A stretch of 20,943 bases of DNA from a virus. Each line of letters starts with the position of its first letter. The first letter of the stretch is position 1. Below the pieces are notes generated by a model. That model did not search any database. It worked only from the letters and a program-made list of their open reading frames with translations, and had not been told where the DNA came from. Location of the stretch: IMG/VR virus record IMGVR_UViG_3300033146_001429, positions 1 to 20,943 of that record; one strand, given 5' to 3'. Of the stretch, positions 526 to 14,957 are shown one piece after another. Both the position numbers and the translations under genes were made by a program.

Positions 526-3500
526 TCACTTCTTCCAATCAGGCTTGTCGACCGCTTTTATTCCAAACATAATACCGCCTGCCCAGCGAATAGGGTTCTT
601 GTATCCCAAGAAATCTGCATATTTACGCCCTGTTAATCCCTCGAACCGCCCGTGATTTATGGCGGCGGAGGTAATTCGCGCAGTGTTCTTCATGGGAACA
701 GACCCGGGGATTCCGGCCATTGGGGTGATATAATCAAATGCGTAAACCGCCGCTTCTCTTGCCGCGTGCTCATCGCCTTTAAGAATGGCGGCGATAACCC
801 GCCCAGTTTGTTTGAGGAACTTTTCGTGCGCTTCGCTGTCTTGCCACGATTTATCTTCCTTCCATGGCAATATCTTTGAAATCGAAATATCAACACCTTT
901 TCCGAAAGCAGGAATCACCGAGCCGAGAGTTCCATTGTTTACGGTCGGATCAAACAACGCCTTCTTGAGTTTGTCGCCAAGGATCAGGCTCATAATAAGG
1001 GCGATAAATCGTTGAGCAATCACCCATTTTACATGCCTTGCCACTCTCTCCGCCCTTGGAGTCTTCATCCCAGCCAGCCCCACCGTCTTCATCGTCTGCC
1101 CGAACGCTGTGAATACGTAGGACTGCATCGGCTTCATAAATCTATACAACGAAGAGTTCAGCATAGGGTTGCGGCAAAGAGAGTCGTACATAGACTGCGT
1201 TTGCGCCGCAACAAAATCAGCATGGATCAGCGCTTCTTCGTCGGATGCCTTTAGTGTTTCTTTTGCATATCGGTATCCGGCATCCCAGGATACTTCCACC
1301 GTAAACCGCTCCATCGGTTTTGCCGCTAACCCGTTTATCCATCTCCTGAACAGTTCCCTTTTCGTCTTGGATAAGCCCGCGCTCTCTATGTCTGACACCG
1401 CTTGCAAACCATCAACATTGTCGCCATCTTTAATGATAGGCACGTATCCCCCAGATGTGTCAATTTCGCCCCTTTTGAACCGCTTAATAGATTTCCAAGT
1501 CTCTCTAAAGCCAACTTCTATTCCCGTAAGCGTCAGCGAAGTCCATTGCGTCACCAACGTCCATCCAAAGTTTCCGGTCAAATATGCGTTGACGCGCGCC
1601 CTTGAAATCAAGTTTGCAGATTCAAGCATAAGACGATAGATTTGCTCTGGAGTCCGCCCATTGACAATATCCGAATTGGAATATATTCCGTCAGGGTCGG
1701 GCGTTGCTCCCTTCCAGTCGGCAACCAAGCCGCTAATACCTTCGAGCACTTTGTTTTCCCACTCGAACGGCTTGTTCTTCACGTTCCGATCATTAAGGTT
1801 TCTCCACCAGTCGGCGGCAGGTTTATTTCCTTGCGACTCTAGATAATCTGCCCATGCCTCGAACTGTGCGGCGCGCTGGGGCAGTACGGCTCCTCTGTCG
1901 GCGTGAGACATTATTGAGGAATAATACCCCAAGAAATCCTTATTATCCAACGCCTGCTTCTCAAAGATTGCGCGCGCGGCATTGCGTAAAATAGAGCTTT
2001 TTGTTTTTTCTCCCTCTGCTTCTTTCGCAAATTCAAGATAAGTCAGCATCTCTTCTTCTGTCTGAACCCCTTCCTGTACAGCCCGTTCAATGGCCGCAAA
2101 TGCAATGCGCCGTTCTGTAGACAATTCAGAAACCTTTGACCGATGATCGCGAGAAAGTGCTATCTGAACCTTTCCGGCTACTAGCGATTTCATCATCATG
2201 TCGGCCATGTCGGCGGTTTCGCGATTAACGCCAAACTCCTTCATTATATCGGGAATTCTCATTCCGCGCTCATAGCCTAAAAAGATGCTGTGGAGATCGT
2301 TATTCCTTTGCGCTCGTTGCTTCTTGTCTAGGCCAACCAACATCTTCTCTACCGTCGCTTCGCGCCTTTCCTCAAGCGTTCGCAGGTTTGCCGCATCTGC
2401 AAACAGTCGATGAAGAACGCGAGAATGCGCCCCGTACCAACGTCCATCCTCCGTCATCCCGTCAAGGCCGTCTAAGAATTGCGTCATCATTGATGGCTCG
2501 ATAAGCATTGACCAAGTTGTCCCGTATTTCTTCGCCAAATCCGAAAGGATGCCAGCGTTCTCGCCAACCACAGACGCAATGCTTGGGATTTGCGCTCCGC
2601 CGCCGTCCTTTTGAAACATGGAAACAGATGCAAAAAACTCGTCGCTTAGGCTCGCTTGCTCGTATACACCAAGGCGCGTTGCCTCTTTCTCGACAGCGCG
2701 GGCATCGTCTAAAATCTCCAGAAGTTTTTCTTCTTTTGGAGTCAGTTCCTGCTCGCTCTTCTTTTTCTCTAAAGCAACCGCAATCTCGTTCGCGTTCCCC
2801 TTAACAGAATCAATCTGTGTCCCGAGTTCTTCGGCGATTGCGGCCAGCATTGCTGAGTCGCGCACAAGATTTTCAACTTGTCGCACGGGATCTTTTAGAA
2901 CTCCTTCAAATTTCCCGTGGCGTTTCTTCATGCTACCGCTTGAGTGCCGAATAAGGTCTTCGATGGTTGTTCCTGCGAAACCACCGTTGCCGTCACCATG
3001 ACGAAGCGGAAAATAAAATCCAGCCACAGCCTCGAAATCTATGCCGAAGGTGTCGGAAATTTCCTCGTACATCGTTCGGTTCTTCTCTGCAAAGACATCC
3101 CACCTTGTAAAAAATTCGCGCGTAGGCTTGTCGAGTTCAGAGAACTTCACCTCTTTGACGGTAGGATCATAGTCTTGAGCGAAGGACGCGTATTGCATTA
3201 TGCGGTCAAAATCTTCTTGTGTGAGGCTCCGAAGGTTCTCAACATCGATTTCAGCCATCCATTGACCCGCCAGATGGTCGCCCCGTTCCTGAATGCGGTG
3301 CATTGCATCAATTAGGGACTGTGATTGCGCCGACGCGTCAGCAACCCTTATAGGCTCCTCTCTGGTCTCCACGCGGTTTGTTTCGATGTCTGTCACCTTT
3401 TGAGTGCCGCTCGCCACTTCTGCGGCATTTACGACGGCTTTATAGTAGTTGCTTTGATGTGGAACGCCCTCGCTTTCAAGAATCGCCTGTACGGTTGCTA

Positions 3501-6500
3501 CAGATCCATCGCGGATGTGTTGGATCAATAATTCGTGTCGCCTCTCAATAGTGTTCCACGCCAGACGTGAAGAAAAATCAGAAGCGTATTCATCAAAATC
3601 AACGGTTTCCCCTGCTTCGTCATACTGCTTTCTTGCCGCTCTATCCCTTGCTTCGGAGCGTTTTGACATGTTCCCTGCAAATAAATCCCTTCCGGCTTGC
3701 TCGAATAACACCTCTGCTTCGGCTGTTCGTCCCGCTAAGCGGAAATCGGGTTTCTGGAAGTCTGCCTCTTCTGCCAGCGATGCCGCCGCCTTTCTTTCTT
3801 TCCGAATGCCTCTTGCCCGATCTTTGACCTCTGCGATTAGTGCTTCGGCATGAGATGGGCTAGAAGCCTTGCTCTGTAACGCTTCAATCAGGGCAGGGGG
3901 GGCTTTCTCTCCGCTTACAAACGATTCGGCGATAAGATCGATTAGGTCGTTCACTTCCATTTCCTTGCCATCAGGCAACTGGTCGGGCTTCTGCGGTTGG
4001 GCGGGGGCAGGGAAATAATCTGTCAGATCTTCTGCAATCTCCACATCGCTATAATCGGGATCTTCTGCAATATTCTTGTTTAGAGTGGCAGTTGTTTCCG
4101 GCGTAGGGTTTTCCAATGCTCGTCGCAGGTTGCTCTGTTGTAAAAGATCGGCTTGCGAAACAATCGCATCGATTCCCGCCGCATCATTGTTTTGGTGAAG
4201 CGCGTAGAGTTCCCCGAATGTCCACGGAACCCTTGATTTCGCATCGAATTTTTGCCGCAGTGTCACAAGTGCGCCCTTCGGCGTGGGCGTTGCCTGTGGT
4301 GTAGGCGGCGAAGGAGGGCGGGTGGCGGGGGCGGTCTTGTGCGCGCCCTGCGCCTGTGCTTCGGCTGGGGTAAATATCATATTATTGCGTAGCCATTCCT
4401 TGGCTACAGGATCGCCCTTGCGGCCTCTGGCCGCCATCTCCTTCACGAATGCCGCGCGATTCGCGTTCGCATCGGAACCGACCGCTCGGGTTGTAGACAA
4501 AGCCTTATCAATCCACTTGTTGCGCGACTTGTTGCGCGGCTCGTGTCCGCCCCTGAACATTAACAGCATAAAGGTGGTATCCACCGACGCTTTAAGGACA
4601 GCCGTTTCTACATCCTCTCCGGCATTAATGCGCGCGGCGGAATTAAGCATCGTCATCGCCGTTGCACCTGCCACAGGATTTACGGAAAACATCCCAAGAG
4701 CGGCACCAAATTTCGCGCCTTCAGTTGCGCCGTGTATCGGGTCGTCCGGATTTGAAATTGCCCCGACCGTCCCTAAGGTTGAGCCACTGGACAACGAGCG
4801 GTCAAGAAAGGGAGCCGCCTTGCTTTTACTCAATCGCTCCAATGCGGGCGACAACTTGCGTAGGCCGGGCACCTTTTTAATATGTTCAGCAACTTTTGCC
4901 ACTGTTGCATTCGCTCCGATCACCTTTCCGCCCACCATAAATGCTGGGATTTCATTGGCCAGCTTCACAGCCGCCTGCTGGTGCTCCTTCGCCTCGCGCT
5001 CAAAGGCAGGGGTATCGCTTTGGGCCTTGTTGATTAAATCGGCATAGGTCTTTAATGCTTCCGGCGAACTCCACTCCGCCGCCGCCGCATAACTTTCCCG
5101 ATAACCCTTCAATCGCTCTTCGTTTTCTGCAATGCGCACCTGACGAGCGCGTTGCTCTTCATCGCTTTCGCCCGGCAGTTTTCCCCAACCCGCCAGAGCT
5201 GGCTTGTATTTCTCATAGACTTGCTGTTCAACCTCGGTCATCGCCAGTCCGCGATCCACAGGGAATTCATCTGCCGCCGTCTTATGGGCATATTCCTCCC
5301 GCGCCTTGCGCGATTTAATCAGCTTCTTAACGCCCTTATCCTTCATCAACTCCTGGGCGCGTTCATTGCGGCGCATCGTCAGCGTATCCCACTGCTGTCC
5401 CTTCTTAAAAATCTCTTCAAACGAAGGCAGCCCCAGCATTTCCAGCTCCTCCGGCTTGCTGGGAACCGCCGCCCCATCTACATCGCCGTAGGCTACACCC
5501 GTTTTCTTATCCACATAATAGGTTTTGCTTGGGTCAGAATGGTTTTCGGCATCCACAGCCTTTGCAACATTATAAGAGTTTGCAATAGCAGGAGTCGCAT
5601 TAGGCCCGTATTCGACCTGCTGAATCGCCATTAATTCGGCATCATCAAGAAGTCGCCCCTCTCGCTCTGAATAATACCGCCTCGATTTTTCCAGTTCAAC
5701 CGTTTCGGGCGGAACTGGAGTAGGAGTAGCAGGGAAACTTGAGTGCTTTAGATTCCATCCAGCGATTAATGCTCTATCGTTTTGCTCTCTATATGCCTCG
5801 AAGTCTGCTGATTCACCAGACTCTGCCGATGTCTTTTTATTGGTATATCGCTCTTTCCATACGCGCGTTGCTTTCTGGGCAAAGTGATTATTAAATTCTT
5901 CTGTAACTTCTTCTTCGGAAAGCGTGTGCTTCCGCTGGTTTAATTGCATTAAAAACTGCCCAGTTTCTTGCACCCAATCGGGATCGCTCCCTCCCATTGC
6001 AAGATAATCTGAAATTTTGCGCTGGCCGTCTGCATAAATTCCCTCAAGTTTTACCACGTGTTGCTTGGCGTACCAGCCAGCATCGTACATTGCTACCGAT
6101 TCCTGATTGTCTATATTAGAATATGCAAGGGTGGCAAGCTGTGCATAGCTGGAATAAACCAGCGAGTCGCGAATTTCCTTCCGTTTTTTTGGTGAATAAT
6201 AAATGCCATCAGGGTCAATGTCGGACTTATTTGCTGGCTCTTTAAATTGTTCAATATAATCGTCGGCCCTCTTCTCGATTGCCTTCATCACCTCGGACAG
6301 CGTTTTCTTTTTGTTTGCGTATTTGACCAGCTCCATCTGAATCGCGGGAAAAGTCGCATCGCCTCGATTCTCTGGGAGTTCTGCCATTATCGCCGCGCCT
6401 CTCGAAATGCTTGCGGCAACAGCTTCAACCTGCTCGTCCTCAATCTTTTTGCCCAGCGCATTAAATACCACTACTGCATCAGTAGAGTCCAGTTTTCCGC

Positions 6501-7335
6501 TCGCCGCGCCCTTCATAAGTTTTGTATTATTTGCTGCCGCTTGAGTAACGCGTTGCGCCCGATCCTTAACCGCTGTGCTTTTTATTGATGCAATTCCTGC
6601 ATTGAGAGCGTTTTCTGTTGCCATTCGTCGCTTCGGATCTGTTTGCTTTGCGGCGTTTTCAGTATTCAATTCTTCCATTTGGTTTATGGCTTCACCTGCT
6701 CCCATTTCTCCGGCTTGAGTTTGGGTCATGATGGTAGCAAGCCTGTTGTTATATGCGGATGAGTAGAGGTCGCTGATGGTTTCCTTTGTCGCAACAACTC
6801 CGATGCTATCGACCAGCGCGGCCTCTTGTTGGGAATAATCCCCGCCTGCCGCAATGATGTTGCCCATATTGGTTTTTATTCTGGATGTGTATTCTCCCAG
6901 TTCCATTGAAGCCTGTTCGAGTACGCCCTCTGTCTCGATTGCTTGCCTCGAAACATCCCAGTTCTGGCTAATACGCCGATAAGAGGTATTGCTATATTGC
7001 TGATTTAGGTTGGCGGCCTCAAAATCCGCAAGCAAAGGCGCGACGACAACATCATTTACGTTTGAGATCGTTGCTGTCCCGTTCTTTATAGCATCAGCCT
7101 TGCCCTTTTCAATATCTGCAATTAGCTTCCGTTTGCGAACTTCGTAGTCCGACCAATCTGCCTCCTGCTTTAGTTGAGTTCTTCGATTGCCAAATTCGGT
7201 AGCTATCTTGGTAGCCTCGCCGCCCAGTTGCGCCATCGCTTTAAATGGAGATGCGGCAACCTGCGGGTTCATTTCAACGGCGGTTCCTTGTGTGGAAACC
7301 GTTGATTGTCTTTGGTAAAGTGGAATCTTTGGCAT
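526..7335 (-). CDS. Giant virion/ejection protein (2269 aa), large-polyvalent-protein type
   Basis: This is the largest gene of the window, at the position where T7-like phages encode their big internal virion protein (T7 gp16, about 1318 aa). Its ATG overlaps the stop of the previous gene (TAATG). Residues 1-700 are mostly helical and charged. Residues 790-930 hold Gly/Ala-rich hydrophobic stretches (GATEGAKFGAALGMF, AGATAMTMLNSAARI) that could insert in a membrane. A Pro-rich linker (1000-1020) leads to a helical middle part with a YFPLRHGDG motif near 1441. Residues 1550-1850 are helical. The end (about 1900-2260) has NFGWTLVTQWTSL, a WDAGYRYAKE...EALIHADFVAAQTQ pattern and a hydrophobic helix IALIMSLILG. 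This C-terminal pattern resembles the large polyvalent proteins of phages. I see no lytic transglycosylase, protease, methyltransferase or polymerase motif. Ejection into the cell is inferred from position, size and the absence of other candidates. Confidence 0.75.
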   Translation of the reverse strand: MPKIPLYQRQSTVSTQGTAVEMNPQVAASPFKAMAQLGGEATKIATEFGNRRTQLKQEADWSDYEVRKRKLIADIEKGKADAIKNGTATISNVNDVVVAPLLADFEAANLNQQYSNTSYRRISQNWDVSRQAIETEGVLEQASMELGEYTSRIKTNMGNIIAAGGDYSQQEAALVDSIGVVATKETISDLYSSAYNNRLATIMTQTQAGEMGAGEAINQMEELNTENAAKQTDPKRRMATENALNAGIASIKSTAVKDRAQRVTQAAANNTKLMKGAASGKLDSTDAVVVFNALGKKIEDEQVEAVAASISRGAAIMAELPENRGDATFPAIQMELVKYANKKKTLSEVMKAIEKRADDYIEQFKEPANKSDIDPDGIYYSPKKRKEIRDSLVYSSYAQLATLAYSNIDNQESVAMYDAGWYAKQHVVKLEGIYADGQRKISDYLAMGGSDPDWVQETGQFLMQLNQRKHTLSEEEVTEEFNNHFAQKATRVWKERYTNKKTSAESGESADFEAYREQNDRALIAGWNLKHSSFPATPTPVPPETVELEKSRRYYSEREGRLLDDAELMAIQQVEYGPNATPAIANSYNVAKAVDAENHSDPSKTYYVDKKTGVAYGDVDGAAVPSKPEELEMLGLPSFEEIFKKGQQWDTLTMRRNERAQELMKDKGVKKLIKSRKAREEYAHKTAADEFPVDRGLAMTEVEQQVYEKYKPALAGWGKLPGESDEEQRARQVRIAENEERLKGYRESYAAAAEWSSPEALKTYADLINKAQSDTPAFEREAKEHQQAAVKLANEIPAFMVGGKVIGANATVAKVAEHIKKVPGLRKLSPALERLSKSKAAPFLDRSLSSGSTLGTVGAISNPDDPIHGATEGAKFGAALGMFSVNPVAGATAMTMLNSAARINAGEDVETAVLKASVDTTFMLLMFRGGHEPRNKSRNKWIDKALSTTRAVGSDANANRAAFVKEMAARGRKGDPVAKEWLRNNMIFTPAEAQAQGAHKTAPATRPPSPPTPQATPTPKGALVTLRQKFDAKSRVPWTFGELYALHQNNDAAGIDAIVSQADLLQQSNLRRALENPTPETTATLNKNIAEDPDYSDVEIAEDLTDYFPAPAQPQKPDQLPDGKEMEVNDLIDLIAESFVSGEKAPPALIEALQSKASSPSHAEALIAEVKDRARGIRKERKAAASLAEEADFQKPDFRLAGRTAEAEVLFEQAGRDLFAGNMSKRSEARDRAARKQYDEAGETVDFDEYASDFSSRLAWNTIERRHELLIQHIRDGSVATVQAILESEGVPHQSNYYKAVVNAAEVASGTQKVTDIETNRVETREEPIRVADASAQSQSLIDAMHRIQERGDHLAGQWMAEIDVENLRSLTQEDFDRIMQYASFAQDYDPTVKEVKFSELDKPTREFFTRWDVFAEKNRTMYEEISDTFGIDFEAVAGFYFPLRHGDGNGGFAGTTIEDLIRHSSGSMKKRHGKFEGVLKDPVRQVENLVRDSAMLAAIAEELGTQIDSVKGNANEIAVALEKKKSEQELTPKEEKLLEILDDARAVEKEATRLGVYEQASLSDEFFASVSMFQKDGGGAQIPSIASVVGENAGILSDLAKKYGTTWSMLIEPSMMTQFLDGLDGMTEDGRWYGAHSRVLHRLFADAANLRTLEERREATVEKMLVGLDKKQRAQRNNDLHSIFLGYERGMRIPDIMKEFGVNRETADMADMMMKSLVAGKVQIALSRDHRSKVSELSTERRIAFAAIERAVQEGVQTEEEMLTYLEFAKEAEGEKTKSSILRNAARAIFEKQALDNKDFLGYYSSIMSHADRGAVLPQRAAQFEAWADYLESQGNKPAADWWRNLNDRNVKNKPFEWENKVLEGISGLVADWKGATPDPDGIYSNSDIVNGRTPEQIYRLMLESANLISRARVNAYLTGNFGWTLVTQWTSLTLTGIEVGFRETWKSIKRFKRGEIDTSGGYVPIIKDGDNVDGLQAVSDIESAGLSKTKRELFRRWINGLAAKPMERFTVEVSWDAGYRYAKETLKASDEEALIHADFVAAQTQSMYDSLCRNPMLNSSLYRFMKPMQSYVFTAFGQTMKTVGLAGMKTPRAERVARHVKWVIAQRFIALIMSLILGDKLKKALFDPTVNNGTLGSVIPAFGKGVDISISKILPWKEDKSWQDSEAHEKFLKQTGRVIAAILKGDEHAAREAAVYAFDYITPMAGIPGSVPMKNTARITSAAINHGRFEGLTGRKYADFLGYKNPIRWAGGIMFGIKAVDKPDWKK

Positions 7336-11200: not shown

Positions 11201-11469
11201 TTCCAGAACCGAATATAACCAGCCCCGAGTTCAAGCATGTAAGCGTCTTCGATGTTTGCAATGAACGGAATCATCCGAACCTTGCCATTATTCTTGGAGC
11301 CGCCCAGATATTCAAGCGCGGGGCGGCGAGTTGCTCCCCCATAACTCAGAGGAACAAAGTTCTCCATAGTCAAACACCCGCTACTGTACTTCTCAAAGTC
11401 AGAACGGGCGTAGAGGTACGGGGAAAGCTCCCCCGCGTTAAGGCTGTTGATTACCTTGTTTGTGGGCAT
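8293..11469 (-). CDS. Tail nozzle / tail tubular protein B-like, with propeller-like insert (1058 aa)
   Basis: The N-terminus (NSLNAGELSPYLYARSDFEK, then MENFVPLSYGGATRRPAL) and the C-terminal half (YRGHPRSIAMYENRLAYGGT, WLSKTDDYNNF, LVIGTAGSEWEL, GLTYERDQNVVGWHRH, GLDHLEGKTVSVVADG) carry the pattern of the podovirus nozzle family that closes the tail below the adaptor, like T7 gp12 (794 aa). Residues 155-260 form a beta-rich domain seen in relatives (SATIGTITLTASRDFFDAGHVG; SGTWTGRVLLQRSLDNKATW). Between about 310 and 640 lies extra material with some five similar segments, each ending in a motif such as DGYLYVIG, NGYFYVTG, DGKIYVTN or GGNLYKYS. These look like blades of an NHL-type beta-propeller. 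The ATG at 11469 has GGAGGGG upstream and overlaps the previous stop (TAATG). The nozzle call is firm; the insert fold is inferred. Confidence 0.85.
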   Translation of the reverse strand: MPTNKVINSLNAGELSPYLYARSDFEKYSSGCLTMENFVPLSYGGATRRPALEYLGGSKNNGKVRMIPFIANIEDAYMLELGAGYIRFWKNGALIEDGGSPLEIGTPYSVEDLAKIKYSQSIDVRWLTHPDYPIQRISRYADSDTAWTNVPEEFQYPPLLDMNDTDITMSPSATIGTITLTASRDFFDAGHVGSSMAFDTVRLLANAAITDTTTVTHASEPLYVSNANWEATTSGTWTGRVLLQRSLDNKATWHDYLVLGDTTGAASGGEKNFSIASDREEATNTWIRLYYIDDGGTFNYSLKTSDPWKTLVDITERTDAKNVIANIRDEFQYIESEFSEWTKAEWSVGTKKYRSAEISYNTEPVVGEDHFPLATINAGLTDVTGMCSATVDGEDCFALTTNGTSNKKVYIIKWDGAAGSPWTDDWDNVASFDVSTEFSSVTDVACPDDGYLYVIGQKTTGLFAVARYTVPVLSVGGVFVDFCKTLDSEHDKVEGLGYYNGYFYVTGVYSTGGASKSFVRQYTTGFSYTGGLYKNITTLPAYHYSGVAGTDGKIYVTNPEDLTIDCFSESLDLLDSSPSSPSTDPQGLCFQQDFAWVCDSGGNLYKYSFAAETLYYECVKETGSGDVFSNDSWSIRDPLMTTWSEGAFSDYRGHPRSIAMYENRLAYGGTKTDPDAIWLSKTDDYNNFTMGELDDDAMKLTLNSGQNDKIRWMVPQANLVIGTAGSEWELRASDERHAVSPTSYDLKRMTTYGSNGLPGILVNSAVLFMMRQSRKVREWTPAYDLKDYVAPDMSILAEHITKGGVTEWAYQQQPDNILWSIRGDGTLLGLTYERDQNVVGWHRHSNSELSFESVAVLPRDNAEDEVWAVVLMGSNHYLTRLNDREWGTDYLTEWQGSDLYKVYTAPGSTTLTGLDHLEGKTVSVVADGVVKANAVVLGGEITIDASTYTTVVVGLPFTSTVEPMHINLETRYGSSQGNKTDIRTAKVQFKDTFSAKCGQQHGELEAVRFNPDDSGLHSDYGLAWFENSSEFLQTCKITQDEPMPCTVLAVIPEIEART

Positions 11470-11777
11470 TACCCCTCCAGAAGGGCTTTATATTTCCAAT
11501 AAGGGGATTTGTTTCCCACACAACGAATGCTTAGCTCAAGCGTCGCCATGTCTACCGGACAAGTCTCTTTGACCTTGATCGACGTTGAAACCGTTTGTGT
11601 TTCAACCACAGGCTCCACAATCGGTGCAAGAACCACTTCTTCCGCAGGCTCGTCCGGCAGATATTTGCAAAGCACTTCGTCCGGCACCTTGTCCGCGTGG
11701 TGGTCAACCTCATCAATCTTGTTGATAAGCTCGCGGCTCTTAACACCTAAAATCTTTGCTAATTCGTATACTTTCAT
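11469..11777 (-). CDS. Small protein with an IF2_N-like N-terminal domain (102 aa)
   Basis: Residues 1-42 (MKVYELAKILGVKSRELINK, then a short helix to KYLPDE) closely follow the pattern of the small IF2_N domain found at the start of bacterial translation initiation factor 2: basic start, YELAK, LGV, S-[RK]-E-L. A Pro/Val/Glu linker (45-60, LAPIVEPVVE) recalls the N-terminal repeats of the scaffold protein. A conserved-looking tail ends RCVGNKSPYWKYKALLEG. No GTPase part is present, so this is not a translation factor. In IF2 the domain is a small helical module; its role here is unknown. The gene overlaps the adaptor stop by ATGA and the nozzle start by TAATG, has GGGAG upstream of its ATG, and so is tied to tail assembly. 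It could be a small tail chaperone or a virion component. Confidence 0.75.
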   Translation of the reverse strand: MKVYELAKILGVKSRELINKIDEVDHHADKVPDEVLCKYLPDEPAEEVVLAPIVEPVVETQTVSTSIKVKETCPVDMATLELSIRCVGNKSPYWKYKALLEG

Positions 11778-12914: not shown

Positions 12915-13913
12915 TTAGGATGCCGCAGGCGACTGGTCGCAAGGAATCACGTTCACAAGTGCTTCTTGTGTGCGAACTGCCCCGAACTGTCCTTTGACGT
13001 AAGCATACCAGTTCAGGCTCTTGTCACCACGCTTTATGATGTCAGTGGAGATGTCCGGATTTACCTCGAACAACACTGCTTCATTTGCGATGAAGGCCGT
13101 AACAGCGCGAACATCGGTGGTATCGGTATCATTCCATGTTCCGGTAGCAGGCGTAAGATCGCTGTCTGCAATGCGGAATCCGGTTCCGGCGGTGTTCATG
13201 TAAGGAACAATATTGGAGATAACAAATTTGCATCCCATATAGTTCTTGATGATCCCGGCCTGCTGTCCATCAATAGGAGCCGCAGTTGTGAAGTCCTTGT
13301 TGATGAAGTTTTGATCTTTCATCATGTCTTGCCATTGCGACCACGAGATTTTGAAGACCGGTGTTTTGGTTTCCAAATCAACATTGTTGTTGCCGAACAT
13401 AGCGAGAGTTGCAAGGAACTTCTCGTACGTGAATCCGGCATTAGTATAACCGGATGCCGCGCCGAGGGTAACATCAATGATGTTGCCTGTATCGAATGCG
13501 ACTGTGGTTTCGCCATTGTCGCCGCCCTGTGCGGTTCCAAGTAGTGCTTGGTCGAGAACGATGTCTTCTTGACGCTTGAACTTGTTCAGCATTGCCGTCA
13601 ACTTCTTCGGCTTTACATCAACGCCCATTTTAGCAATGTCTGCCCAGTCCATGAACTGACCATCATTGTAGCTGGAGCGAGATACGCGCCGACGACTGTA
13701 ATCGAGTTCGGAAACAGGAGAGTCCCCAAAACGATTTGTTACCTTGGCTGGCAGTCCGCCACCGGTTGTGAATTGATAAACCCCATCGGCGCGAAACAAA
13801 TCACCCGATGCGACTTCTGCGAATTGGCGGAGCTTGCCGCCTTGAACTTCTACGTTCGACCGAACTGTGCGATCAAACCCTACTTTATAAGTATTGAGTA
13901 GGTCTTGGCTCAT
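12915..13913 (-). CDS. Major capsid protein (332 aa)
   Basis: The size fits the T7-group capsid proteins (T7 gp10A is 345 aa). The sequence has the expected order: an N-terminal helix (LLNTYKVGFDRTVRSNVEVQ), a GxFRADGVYQF region, a segment with SRRRVSRSSYNDGQFMDWAD, a long helix with KPKKLTAMLNKFKRQEDIVLDQAL, then GYTNAGFTYEKFLATLAMFG, WSQWQDMMKDQNFINKDF, the capsid-typical GCKFVISNIVPY, and ESDIS-type ending with WYAYVKGQFGAVRTQEALVN. It builds the icosahedral shell on the scaffold encoded just upstream. The ribosome-binding site AAGAGGT lies six bases before the ATG. It can be paired with a perfect complement in the same 174-base leader, and a promoter candidate lies at the beginning of that leader, so this gene is likely controlled separately from its neighbours. 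Confidence 0.88.
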   Translation of the reverse strand: MSQDLLNTYKVGFDRTVRSNVEVQGGKLRQFAEVASGDLFRADGVYQFTTGGGLPAKVTNRFGDSPVSELDYSRRRVSRSSYNDGQFMDWADIAKMGVDVKPKKLTAMLNKFKRQEDIVLDQALLGTAQGGDNGETTVAFDTGNIIDVTLGAASGYTNAGFTYEKFLATLAMFGNNNVDLETKTPVFKISWSQWQDMMKDQNFINKDFTTAAPIDGQQAGIIKNYMGCKFVISNIVPYMNTAGTGFRIADSDLTPATGTWNDTDTTDVRAVTAFIANEAVLFEVNPDISTDIIKRGDKSLNWYAYVKGQFGAVRTQEALVNVIPCDQSPAAS

Positions 13914-14046
13914 AATAATACCTCTTGGTTACTCGTTGCGTTTTTGTCGGCTTATGAGTATCCGCACTCGCGGGTCTGGCCTGATATTCGGGTTCTCACC
14001 CTGTTCGCAGGAATCAGGCTCCGAAGAGGTATCTGCTTTGTGAACG
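13914..14046 (-). promoter_or_regulatory. Structured mRNA leader of the capsid gene with an anti-Shine-Dalgarno segment
   Basis: In the transcript, ATACCTCTT (14032-14024) is the exact complement of AAGAGGTAT (13926-13918), which contains the ribosome-binding site of the capsid gene. Between these arms are further self-complementary segments: GCCTGAT/ATCAGGC (14019-14013 with 13985-13979), two small overlapping hairpins inside it (CCTG-CGAA-CAGG and GGGT-GAGA-ACCC, the latter with a GNRA loop) and CCGC-GAGT-GCGG (13973-13962). A competing GAGT/ACTC pairing (13969-13966 with 13959-13956) overlaps the last one. The whole could fold into a branched structure that hides the start site. It may be a translational switch, a protein-binding site or an RNase III processing site. 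I do not recognise a known riboswitch class. Confidence 0.6.
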
Positions 14047-14052
14047 GTTTCT

Positions 14053-14081
14053 TGTTTAGACTAAATCCGAAGAAGAGTCAA
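14053..14081 (-). promoter_or_regulatory. Candidate sigma70 promoter for the capsid gene
   Basis: TTGACT (14081-14076) is followed after exactly 17 bases by TAAACA (14058-14053). The -35 box is strong and the -10 box weak (three of six). It begins seven bases after the scaffold stop codon. A transcript from it would start near 14046, just ahead of the anti-Shine-Dalgarno segment. Confidence 0.4.
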
Positions 14082-14087
14082 GAGCGA

Positions 14088-14957
14088 CTATGACATTTTT
14101 GTTAGGAGCTTCAACCGCTGTTCGCCCAAGGCTTTGTATTCCGGCGAGTTGGTGTTTCCCTCAAAGCGTTGCATCTTCCCTTCAATGTCAACGAGAGTAT
14201 CGGTGACGGTATCCAGATTTTGCGATTGCTTCGCTTCAATGATCGCGTCGTCAGAAACCAGCGGAACGATATTGTCGAAGAACTCTTTCATTCGCTCTGG
14301 ATTGTTCCCGAATGCCGGGTCTTCTACCCACGAAGATAGACCCAAATGCTCCAAAGAAGTTTTGATTTTAGCGACATTGTACTCAAATTTGTCGCCCTTC
14401 CACTCCGCTCGTAGCACCTTCTCGGCTTCGACCACAGCCGCTTGTTCAGAGTCTCTTTGTGCTTCAAATTGCGCCACCGCTCCCTGTTTGTCCCACGCAA
14501 GAATGTCATCGACCATTGCCTTGGGATACCCCTTCTCAAGCGCAAAGGTCATAAACTCCTTAGAGCGAGTATCTGCAAACTCTTTCAGCTCGTCAGGCAA
14601 ACCTTCGCTGTCAAATGAATAACCAGAAACCTCCTTCGGAACGCCCATAATTTCACGCCGCTTTGCGATAATGTCTTTATCTTCGGACTTCCAGAAATCC
14701 TCGGCCTTCTTTCCAGCCAGACCCTGTGCATTGATCGCTCCTTTCACTAAGTCGGTGATGTTTCCGTACTTCTGGAAAATCGAATGCTTCCCCAACTCAT
14801 CAGGGAGATTGTCTAAAAATGATTGCGTAAATGCGTTTTCATCCCCCAGTGGATCGGCCACAGGCTCAACAACGGGTTCAACCGCGGGTTCAGCCGCAGG
14901 GGCAACTACAGGCTCGACTACGGGTTCGACTACAGGCTCGACTACAGGCTCACTCAT
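14088..14957 (-). CDS. Capsid assembly scaffolding protein (289 aa)
   Basis: An acidic, helix-rich protein directly upstream of the capsid gene, the standard place for the scaffold; T7 gp9 is 307 aa. Residues 3-34 are a Pro-Val-Glu repeat (EPVV units) that is probably disordered. Residues 40-150 carry the pattern of podovirus scaffolds (FLDNLPDELGKHSIFQKYGN, KAEDFWKSEDKD, the MGVPKEVSGYSF segment, then GLPDELKEFADTRSKEFMTF). Helical segments follow (AVAQFEAQRDSEQAAVVEAE) and a C-terminal helix (EYKALGEQRLKLLTKMS) that probably contacts the capsid protein. It guides shell assembly and leaves before DNA packaging. The ATG at 14957 has AAAGGAG upstream and overlaps the preceding gene by eight bases. 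Confidence 0.85.
   Translation of the reverse strand: MSEPVVEPVVEPVVEPVVAPAAEPAVEPVVEPVADPLGDENAFTQSFLDNLPDELGKHSIFQKYGNITDLVKGAINAQGLAGKKAEDFWKSEDKDIIAKRREIMGVPKEVSGYSFDSEGLPDELKEFADTRSKEFMTFALEKGYPKAMVDDILAWDKQGAVAQFEAQRDSEQAAVVEAEKVLRAEWKGDKFEYNVAKIKTSLEHLGLSSWVEDPAFGNNPERMKEFFDNIVPLVSDDAIIEAKQSQNLDTVTDTLVDIEGKMQRFEGNTNSPEYKALGEQRLKLLTKMS
14856..14951 (-). repeat. 12-base repeat coding for EPVV in the scaffold N-terminus
   Basis: Eight consecutive 12-base units follow the first two codons of the scaffold gene. The first units are nearly identical (GAGCCTGTAGTC), and later ones drift to give APAA, EPAV and EPVA. This is a coding minisatellite that could change length by slippage in steps of four residues without breaking the frame. 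Confidence 0.85.

Follow-up and report, generated by a model that had tools for sequence, protein, structure and literature searches.

The capsid gene of this virus is preceded by a conserved, structured mRNA leader, which we read as a cis-regulatory element with two matching sites for a factor whose binding would free the Shine-Dalgarno sequence (SD) in the window and in many of its relatives. We put the chance that this reading is right at roughly one in two. The window is the whole stretch of viral DNA analysed, 20,943 nt. Sequence comparison shows the conserved position of the leader and of its promoter, covarying stems, two tandem loops that change in concert and, in the window and many relatives, the overlap of one module with the anti-SD segment.

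The capsid locus and its leader

The late region of the window is podovirus-like, with genes for a portal (PF12236), a probable scaffold, the capsid (PF19821) and a tail protein. In pelagiphages, a gene annotated as capsid assembly protein occupies the same place as the 289-aa upstream gene of the window. The N-terminus of the probable scaffold protein (14880-14957, minus strand) is a run of EPVVEPVV repeats. Further along the late region, a single very long ORF (526-7335, minus strand; 2269 aa) probably encodes an internal virion or ejection protein. Among the tail genes, a 102-aa protein (11469-11777, minus strand) matches the IF2 N-terminal domain (PF04760, E 0.0007, under the curated cut-off), and a similar small gene is found at the equivalent position in L086; this small late protein might touch RNA or ribosomes.

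An earlier note on this DNA had proposed a promoter just ahead of the leader. A TTGAC(A) element with a -10-like box at 16-18 nt is present at the same position in 35/35 leaders compared; in the window itself the promoter is weak when taken alone and is absent from the promoter-prediction list. From its conserved position, the RNA would start just ahead of the conserved core. The promoter spacer (14059-14075 of the window, minus strand) contains a TTTAGAT-like word that recurs, for example, in L006, L011, L012, L013, L028 and L086, and is perhaps an extra promoter element.

Table 1. Features of the capsid locus and leader RNA in the window
Feature	Position	Strand	Remarks
Major capsid protein gene, 332 aa	12915..13913	(-)	PF19821 Phage_capsid_2, E 1.1e-31; phrog_3437 major head protein, E 4.2e-35
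Capsid start codon ATG	13913-13911	(-)	
AAGAGGUAU, capsid gene SD with its pairing arm	13918..13926	(-)	
Conserved leader RNA core	13945..14038	(-)	R1 67.8 bits, E 3.6e-14; R2 64.1 bits, E 1.2e-13
Module II: P5 GGC/GCC, GA/UC, then [C]CCGC(GAGU)GCGG[AUAC]	13949..13981	(-)	
P2, GCCUGAU/AUCAGGC	13979..14019	(-)	in MFE fold; incompatible with P1 (module I) and P5 (module II)
P3 hairpin GGGU-GAGA-ACCC, GNRA loop	13990..14001	(-)	covaries
Module I, CAG[AUAC]CUC(UUCG)GAG[C]CUG: helix P1, 4x1 internal loop, hairpin P1b	14015..14035	(-)	
Anti-SD segment AUACCUCUU, loop I plus 5' strand of P1b	14024..14032	(-)	exact complement of 13926-13918; duplex and ensemble predictions
Sigma-70-type promoter, TTGACT, 17 nt, TAAACA	14053..14081	(-)	directly past scaffold stop codon; predicted transcript start ~14046
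Promoter boxes: -35 TTGACT; -10 TAAACA	14081-14076; 14058-14053	(-)	
Gene upstream of the capsid gene (289 aa), probably for a scaffold or capsid assembly protein	14088..14957	(-)	phrog_3742, E 1.4e-20

The anti-SD pairing on which the earlier note was built is exact, the arm ATACCTCTT (14032-14024, minus strand) being the reverse complement of AAGAGGTAT (13926-13918, minus strand). Its low estimate for a chance match also holds: the complement of the given 9-mer is expected ~0.0005 times per 136-nt leader, and that of any SD-covering 9-mer ~0.004 times. The helices it listed between the arms are all present: GCCTGAT (14019-14013) with ATCAGGC (13985-13979), GGGT-GAGA-ACCC (14001-13990) and CCGC-GAGT-GCGG (13973-13962). 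The last of these belongs to the inner segment of module II, GA[C]CCGC(GAGU)GCGG[AUAC]UC, at 13976-13956. The leader (13911-14046) folds at -39.4 kcal/mol, compared with -26.6 +/- 3.2 for shuffles (z -4.0, 0/200), a signal that weakens to z -1.6 with longer flanks. In the predicted fold, the window SD is paired with the 5' arm at a probability of ~1.0.

Relatives and covariation

Capsid relatives were collected from IMG/VR, 6 via the window protein and 60 via an alignment, and 38 distinct leaders were studied. A homologous leader lies directly before the capsid gene in all of the IMG/VR capsid relatives found (~60 loci). The leaders form two groups labelled 'freshwater' and 'marine', documented marine origin being limited to the pelagiphages. 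From 21 marine leaders, the window not among them, we derived two covariance models, R1 and R2. All matches of R1 (63/63) fall on capsid leaders, and the ten records of 34-43 kb have one leader copy apiece. R2 also matches weakly (E 0.07-0.9) at three other places, L057:1965-2048, L058:1963-2046 and L048:825-909, which lie some 1 kb upstream of the capsid gene and are probably due to chance. A scan of viral contigs with the core pattern gave 54 matches; those beyond capsid leaders (L069, L070, L071, L073, L084, L091, L095, L096, L102, L108 and L118) get no score from R2 and were discarded as chance. The GTDB genomes searched contained neither capsid relatives nor the core pattern, hence no prophage or host copy was seen.

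The leader was compared with known RNA classes in Rfam 15. For the window there was no match at gathering score and none at E <= 5 in 13850-14150; for ten homologous loci there was none at E <= 1 on the leader, and two chance-level matches elsewhere in L066. The view of the earlier note that no known class is involved agrees with these searches. Resemblance to cobalamin, preQ1-II and theophylline-like aptamers was in letters only, and these candidates were dropped, Rfam giving no match.

In an unfitted alignment (A5), a structure consisting of P1, P1b, P3, P5 and P4 has 95% of its cells paired. Doubly changed cells number 33, as against 8.8 when shuffled, and the covariation score is 0.278 as against 0.140 (0/500); the leader shuffle statistics, and the arm-swap statistics given below, ignore shared ancestry. 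Shifting the helix partners abolishes the signal. When changes are mapped onto the capsid tree by parsimony, 43 are compensatory, 20 affect one side of a pair only and 21 break or mend a pair, the count of 43 being inflated because the script took the best-complementary positions; permutations gave 8.0 +/- 2.8 compensatory changes. Pair 3 of P4 has 11 compensatory events by parsimony, and P3 shows changes from GC to CG, AU and UA with no broken pairs. Homologous capsid leaders and compensatory changes in them, which the earlier note had named as the check to be made, are thus both found, and the branched RNA with alternative folds that it envisaged before the capsid gene is conserved and covarying.

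The two helices that compete for the same strand do not fare equally. Column 5-25 of P1 is paired in 21/21 leaders as AU, GU, GC or UA, and column 25-58 of P2 is unpaired in 6/21. Covariation of P1 at places where P2 is broken led us to give up a main model whose only core helix was P2 (GCC/GGC). Since P2 shares strands with P1 and P5, it is an alternative state. The GCCTGAT/ATCAGGC helix of the earlier note therefore stands as one of two states, in competition with the covarying P1. R2 outscores R1 on most of the divergent freshwater leaders, and R1 is slightly better on the window and L086. As each model is best on different leaders, both folds may matter. In marine-type leaders, an AGAUU at the extreme 5' end (the predicted transcript start) can pair with AAUCU or GAUCU before P3; no such extra 5'-terminal helix was seen in freshwater-type leaders.

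The tandem modules and their remote relatives

Both arms of the core share one asymmetric internal loop, 4 nt starting with A opposite 1 nt that is nearly always C (AAA replaces the single C of module I in L008 and L010). A G-C closing pair bounds the loop on one side and a short stem on the other, 5'-G[ANNM]..-3' facing the single C, and the two modules flank the GNRA-capped P3 hairpin, one on each side. Tandem modules were read by script in 37/38 leaders, the exception, L033, having an imperfect P1; for L025, L030 and L056 we overrode the script and assigned module I by eye, after close relatives. Letters 3-4 of the loop are identical in the two modules of every leader compared on the capsid tree. 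They are AC/AC in most leaders, UA/UA in L013 and L028, and CC/CC in L006. Once the pelagiphages (AA/AA) are included, the capsid tree shows three changes of loop-letter label, the minimum possible. This matched pair of asymmetric loops, absent from the earlier note, is the feature kept throughout, whereas the anti-SD pairing emphasised there is not universal.

A strict descriptor was used to define the leader family: G[ANNM]..[C]C followed by [C]C..G[ANNM], the two loops sharing letters 3-4, ahead of a capsid gene from the window's family. The window conforms to it, its loops being AUAC/AUAC. The descriptor finds 42/48 leaders, 2/4800 dinucleotide shuffles and one non-leader place in 2992 background windows (17 records), having been tuned on the same leaders that were counted.

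The PELAGIPHAGES are isolated HTVC010P-type SAR11 phages whose capsids are ~25% identical to the window capsid family. R1 finds no leader in HTVC010P-type pelagiphages. R2 has a match on the capsid leader in 10/11 of them, including HTVC010P, Greip, Lederberg, HTVC204P, HTVC100P and HTVC024P (E 0.07-0.7), and gives no match there in Skadi-4. In each of four pelagiphages added later the capsid leader is the top R2 match, HTVC028P being the best (E 0.0011). As the single E-values are weak and the phages mutually related, membership is argued from the repeated position of the match, by which the HTVC010P-type capsid leaders are distant members of the leader family. Their module I reads GUAAG[ACAA]UUC(GNRA)GAA[C]CUUAC and their second module, for example, GAGAAG[C]CAGA..UCUG[AUAA]CGUCUC.

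Among the most distant phages, a loose module scan of Baldr, ZP6, MW202510 and MW202898 was not convincingly above shuffles, and modules there are read by eye only. In MW202742 two concordant modules were found (1/500 shuffles), the scan's pair differing from the by-eye pair. Possible by-eye module pairs, mostly not convincingly above shuffles, are seen in the capsid leaders of L135, L134, L067 and L131, an example being CUGAGG[AGAA]UC(GCAA)GA[C]CCUCAG in MW202742. The leader of L133 (Alteromonas phage ZP6), before a distantly related capsid gene, has two GGUAGCCA(N)UAGG-like words, a different tandem motif.

Predicted Shine-Dalgarno masking and the proposed mode of action

In the window's family, the anti-SD is made of loop I and the 5' strand of P1b, so that module I and SD masking are mutually exclusive. 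Complementarity between arm and SD is kept while sequence and register vary by lineage; in freshwater leaders the two are CUCCAUUUGAG and CUCAAAUGGAG, and in L086 the duplex reaches 17 pairs. Own arm/SD duplexes come to -9.6 kcal/mol and swapped ones to -7.9 (0/20000 permutations, with kinship ignored). In 18/38 leaders the 5' arm is predicted to mask the SD at p > 0.75. On the capsid tree such masking is predicted in 10/10 deep-branching rows, the window among them, and in 6/21 rows of the marine crown; it thus looks ancestral in the family and repeatedly weakened. The anti-SD pairing is weak or missing in roughly half the leaders, every one of them marine, so masking is not a universal function, and theories requiring it in every member were dropped. 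The SD-hiding leader of the earlier note accordingly fits the window and the other deep lineages, where the predicted masking is strong, and does not fit that marine half. In the pelagiphages, the SD is predicted to be masked (p > 0.7) in 7/11, by the 3' strand of module II in those inspected. Alternative folds that mask or free the SD, which a translational riboswitch would have, are likewise only predicted, from computed energies, in those 18/38 leaders.

The fold in which module I forms and the SD is free is less stable than the masked one, by 18 kcal/mol in the window, by 9-24 across the leaders whose anti-SD is strong and by 0-6 in most others. A gap of 18 kcal/mol is too large for reversal by a ligand at equilibrium, so a switch would have to be kinetic, operating during RNA synthesis. 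Masking of the SD may simply be the resting state. Module I can form ahead of SD transcription, and binding to it would probably be co-transcriptional. We infer that a single factor binds both modules as matching sites. It is most likely a protein encoded by the phage, given that the loop letters differ from one phage lineage to another. On nascent module I, the factor would keep the SD free and the capsid would be translated; unbound RNA would refold to the masked state, more stable by the margin given above where the anti-SD is strong. In leaders without an anti-SD, the same sites may serve another output, such as mRNA stability, ribosome recruitment or transcription elongation.

That the modules outlast the anti-SD could also be explained by a cis-acting antitermination RNA, in which the nascent two-stem-loop structure binds RNA polymerase for read-through of the late operon and the SD pairing is secondary. 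The precedent is HK022, whose putL site is described as ~70 nt with two stem-loops immediately downstream of PL (PMC9378689). The put sites are likewise phage leader RNAs of ~70-90 nt with two promoter-adjacent stem-loops and unpaired internal bases, and act on RNA polymerase for early genes (PMC9378689); the capsid leader, in contrast, is at the capsid gene, has matched loops in both arms and carries an anti-SD in many members. The capsid leader does place two stem-loops with unpaired internal bases right after a sigma-70 promoter, with a long late operon downstream. However, a conserved polymerase does not demand the lineage-wise change of loop letters 3-4, and the anti-SD lies on a module strand in the window clade and the pelagiphages alike. 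The highest R2 score in the two stretches of HK022 searched, which may or may not span putL and putR, was a non-significant 9.5 bits (E 0.49). We consider a put-like role unlikely.

The concerted, phage-lineage-specific loop changes that suit a phage-encoded activator would equally suit autogenous repression, in which free capsid (or scaffold) protein on both modules lowers capsid translation; every copy found is at a capsid gene. The coat operator of RNA phages is a phage autogenous translational operator. HK97-fold capsid proteins are not known to be specific RNA binders, which counts against repression of this kind, as does the prediction that formation of module I frees the SD in the window and its relatives, the opposite logic. 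We regard it as improbable. Autogenous operators such as that of T4 gp32 mRNA (PMC535899) likewise consist of a phage mRNA leader with a probable protein target and control a virion or replication protein; the capsid leader differs in having two separate 4x1 loops on the capsid mRNA of a dsDNA phage and in a predicted logic of opening, not closing. Ribosomal-protein leaders are also structured mRNA leaders, autoregulatory ones in which RNA and protein evolve together, but the capsid leader has no downstream r-protein gene and no Rfam match.

A tandem aptamer sensing a host metabolite would fit the compact fold, the unpaired letters that hardly vary and an expression platform built on an anti-SD, and translational riboswitches with an anti-SD platform share the mutually exclusive folds, one masking the SD. 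However, the loop letters that would contact the ligand differ in step between lineages, the anti-SD is partly lost, and the leader has no known aptamer, no Rfam riboswitch match and no metabolic gene. A small-molecule riboswitch is therefore very unlikely. We give similarly little credence to a passive element, a structured 5' end that would shield a very abundant mRNA and adjust its initiation but would not switch. The SD is largely unpaired in many marine leaders, as such an element would allow, but protection alone calls for neither tandem loops that change in concert nor an anti-SD retained through altered sequence and register.

As a cis-regulatory mRNA leader the RNA is of a known kind; the family is undescribed and its tandem-loop architecture unusual, and the open-access literature, screened by titles and the openings of abstracts, gave no pointer to it. 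Little is known in tailed phages of the control of capsid synthesis by a dedicated leader RNA. This one is found in a broad group of aquatic phages, at their capsid genes; the group includes isolated members of the very common pelagiphages, which infect SAR11. More tentatively, and at somewhat less than even odds, an undescribed RNA class with two co-evolving copies of a binding loop, recognised by a phage-encoded partner, may time capsid synthesis in a broad range of freshwater and marine podoviruses, including the HTVC010P-type SAR11 phages. At ~90 nt, the leader is small and concrete enough for its structure to be probed, its binding partner sought and the timing of late-gene output followed, and the joint change of the two loops leads one to expect a binder with a specificity that would be testable between lineages.
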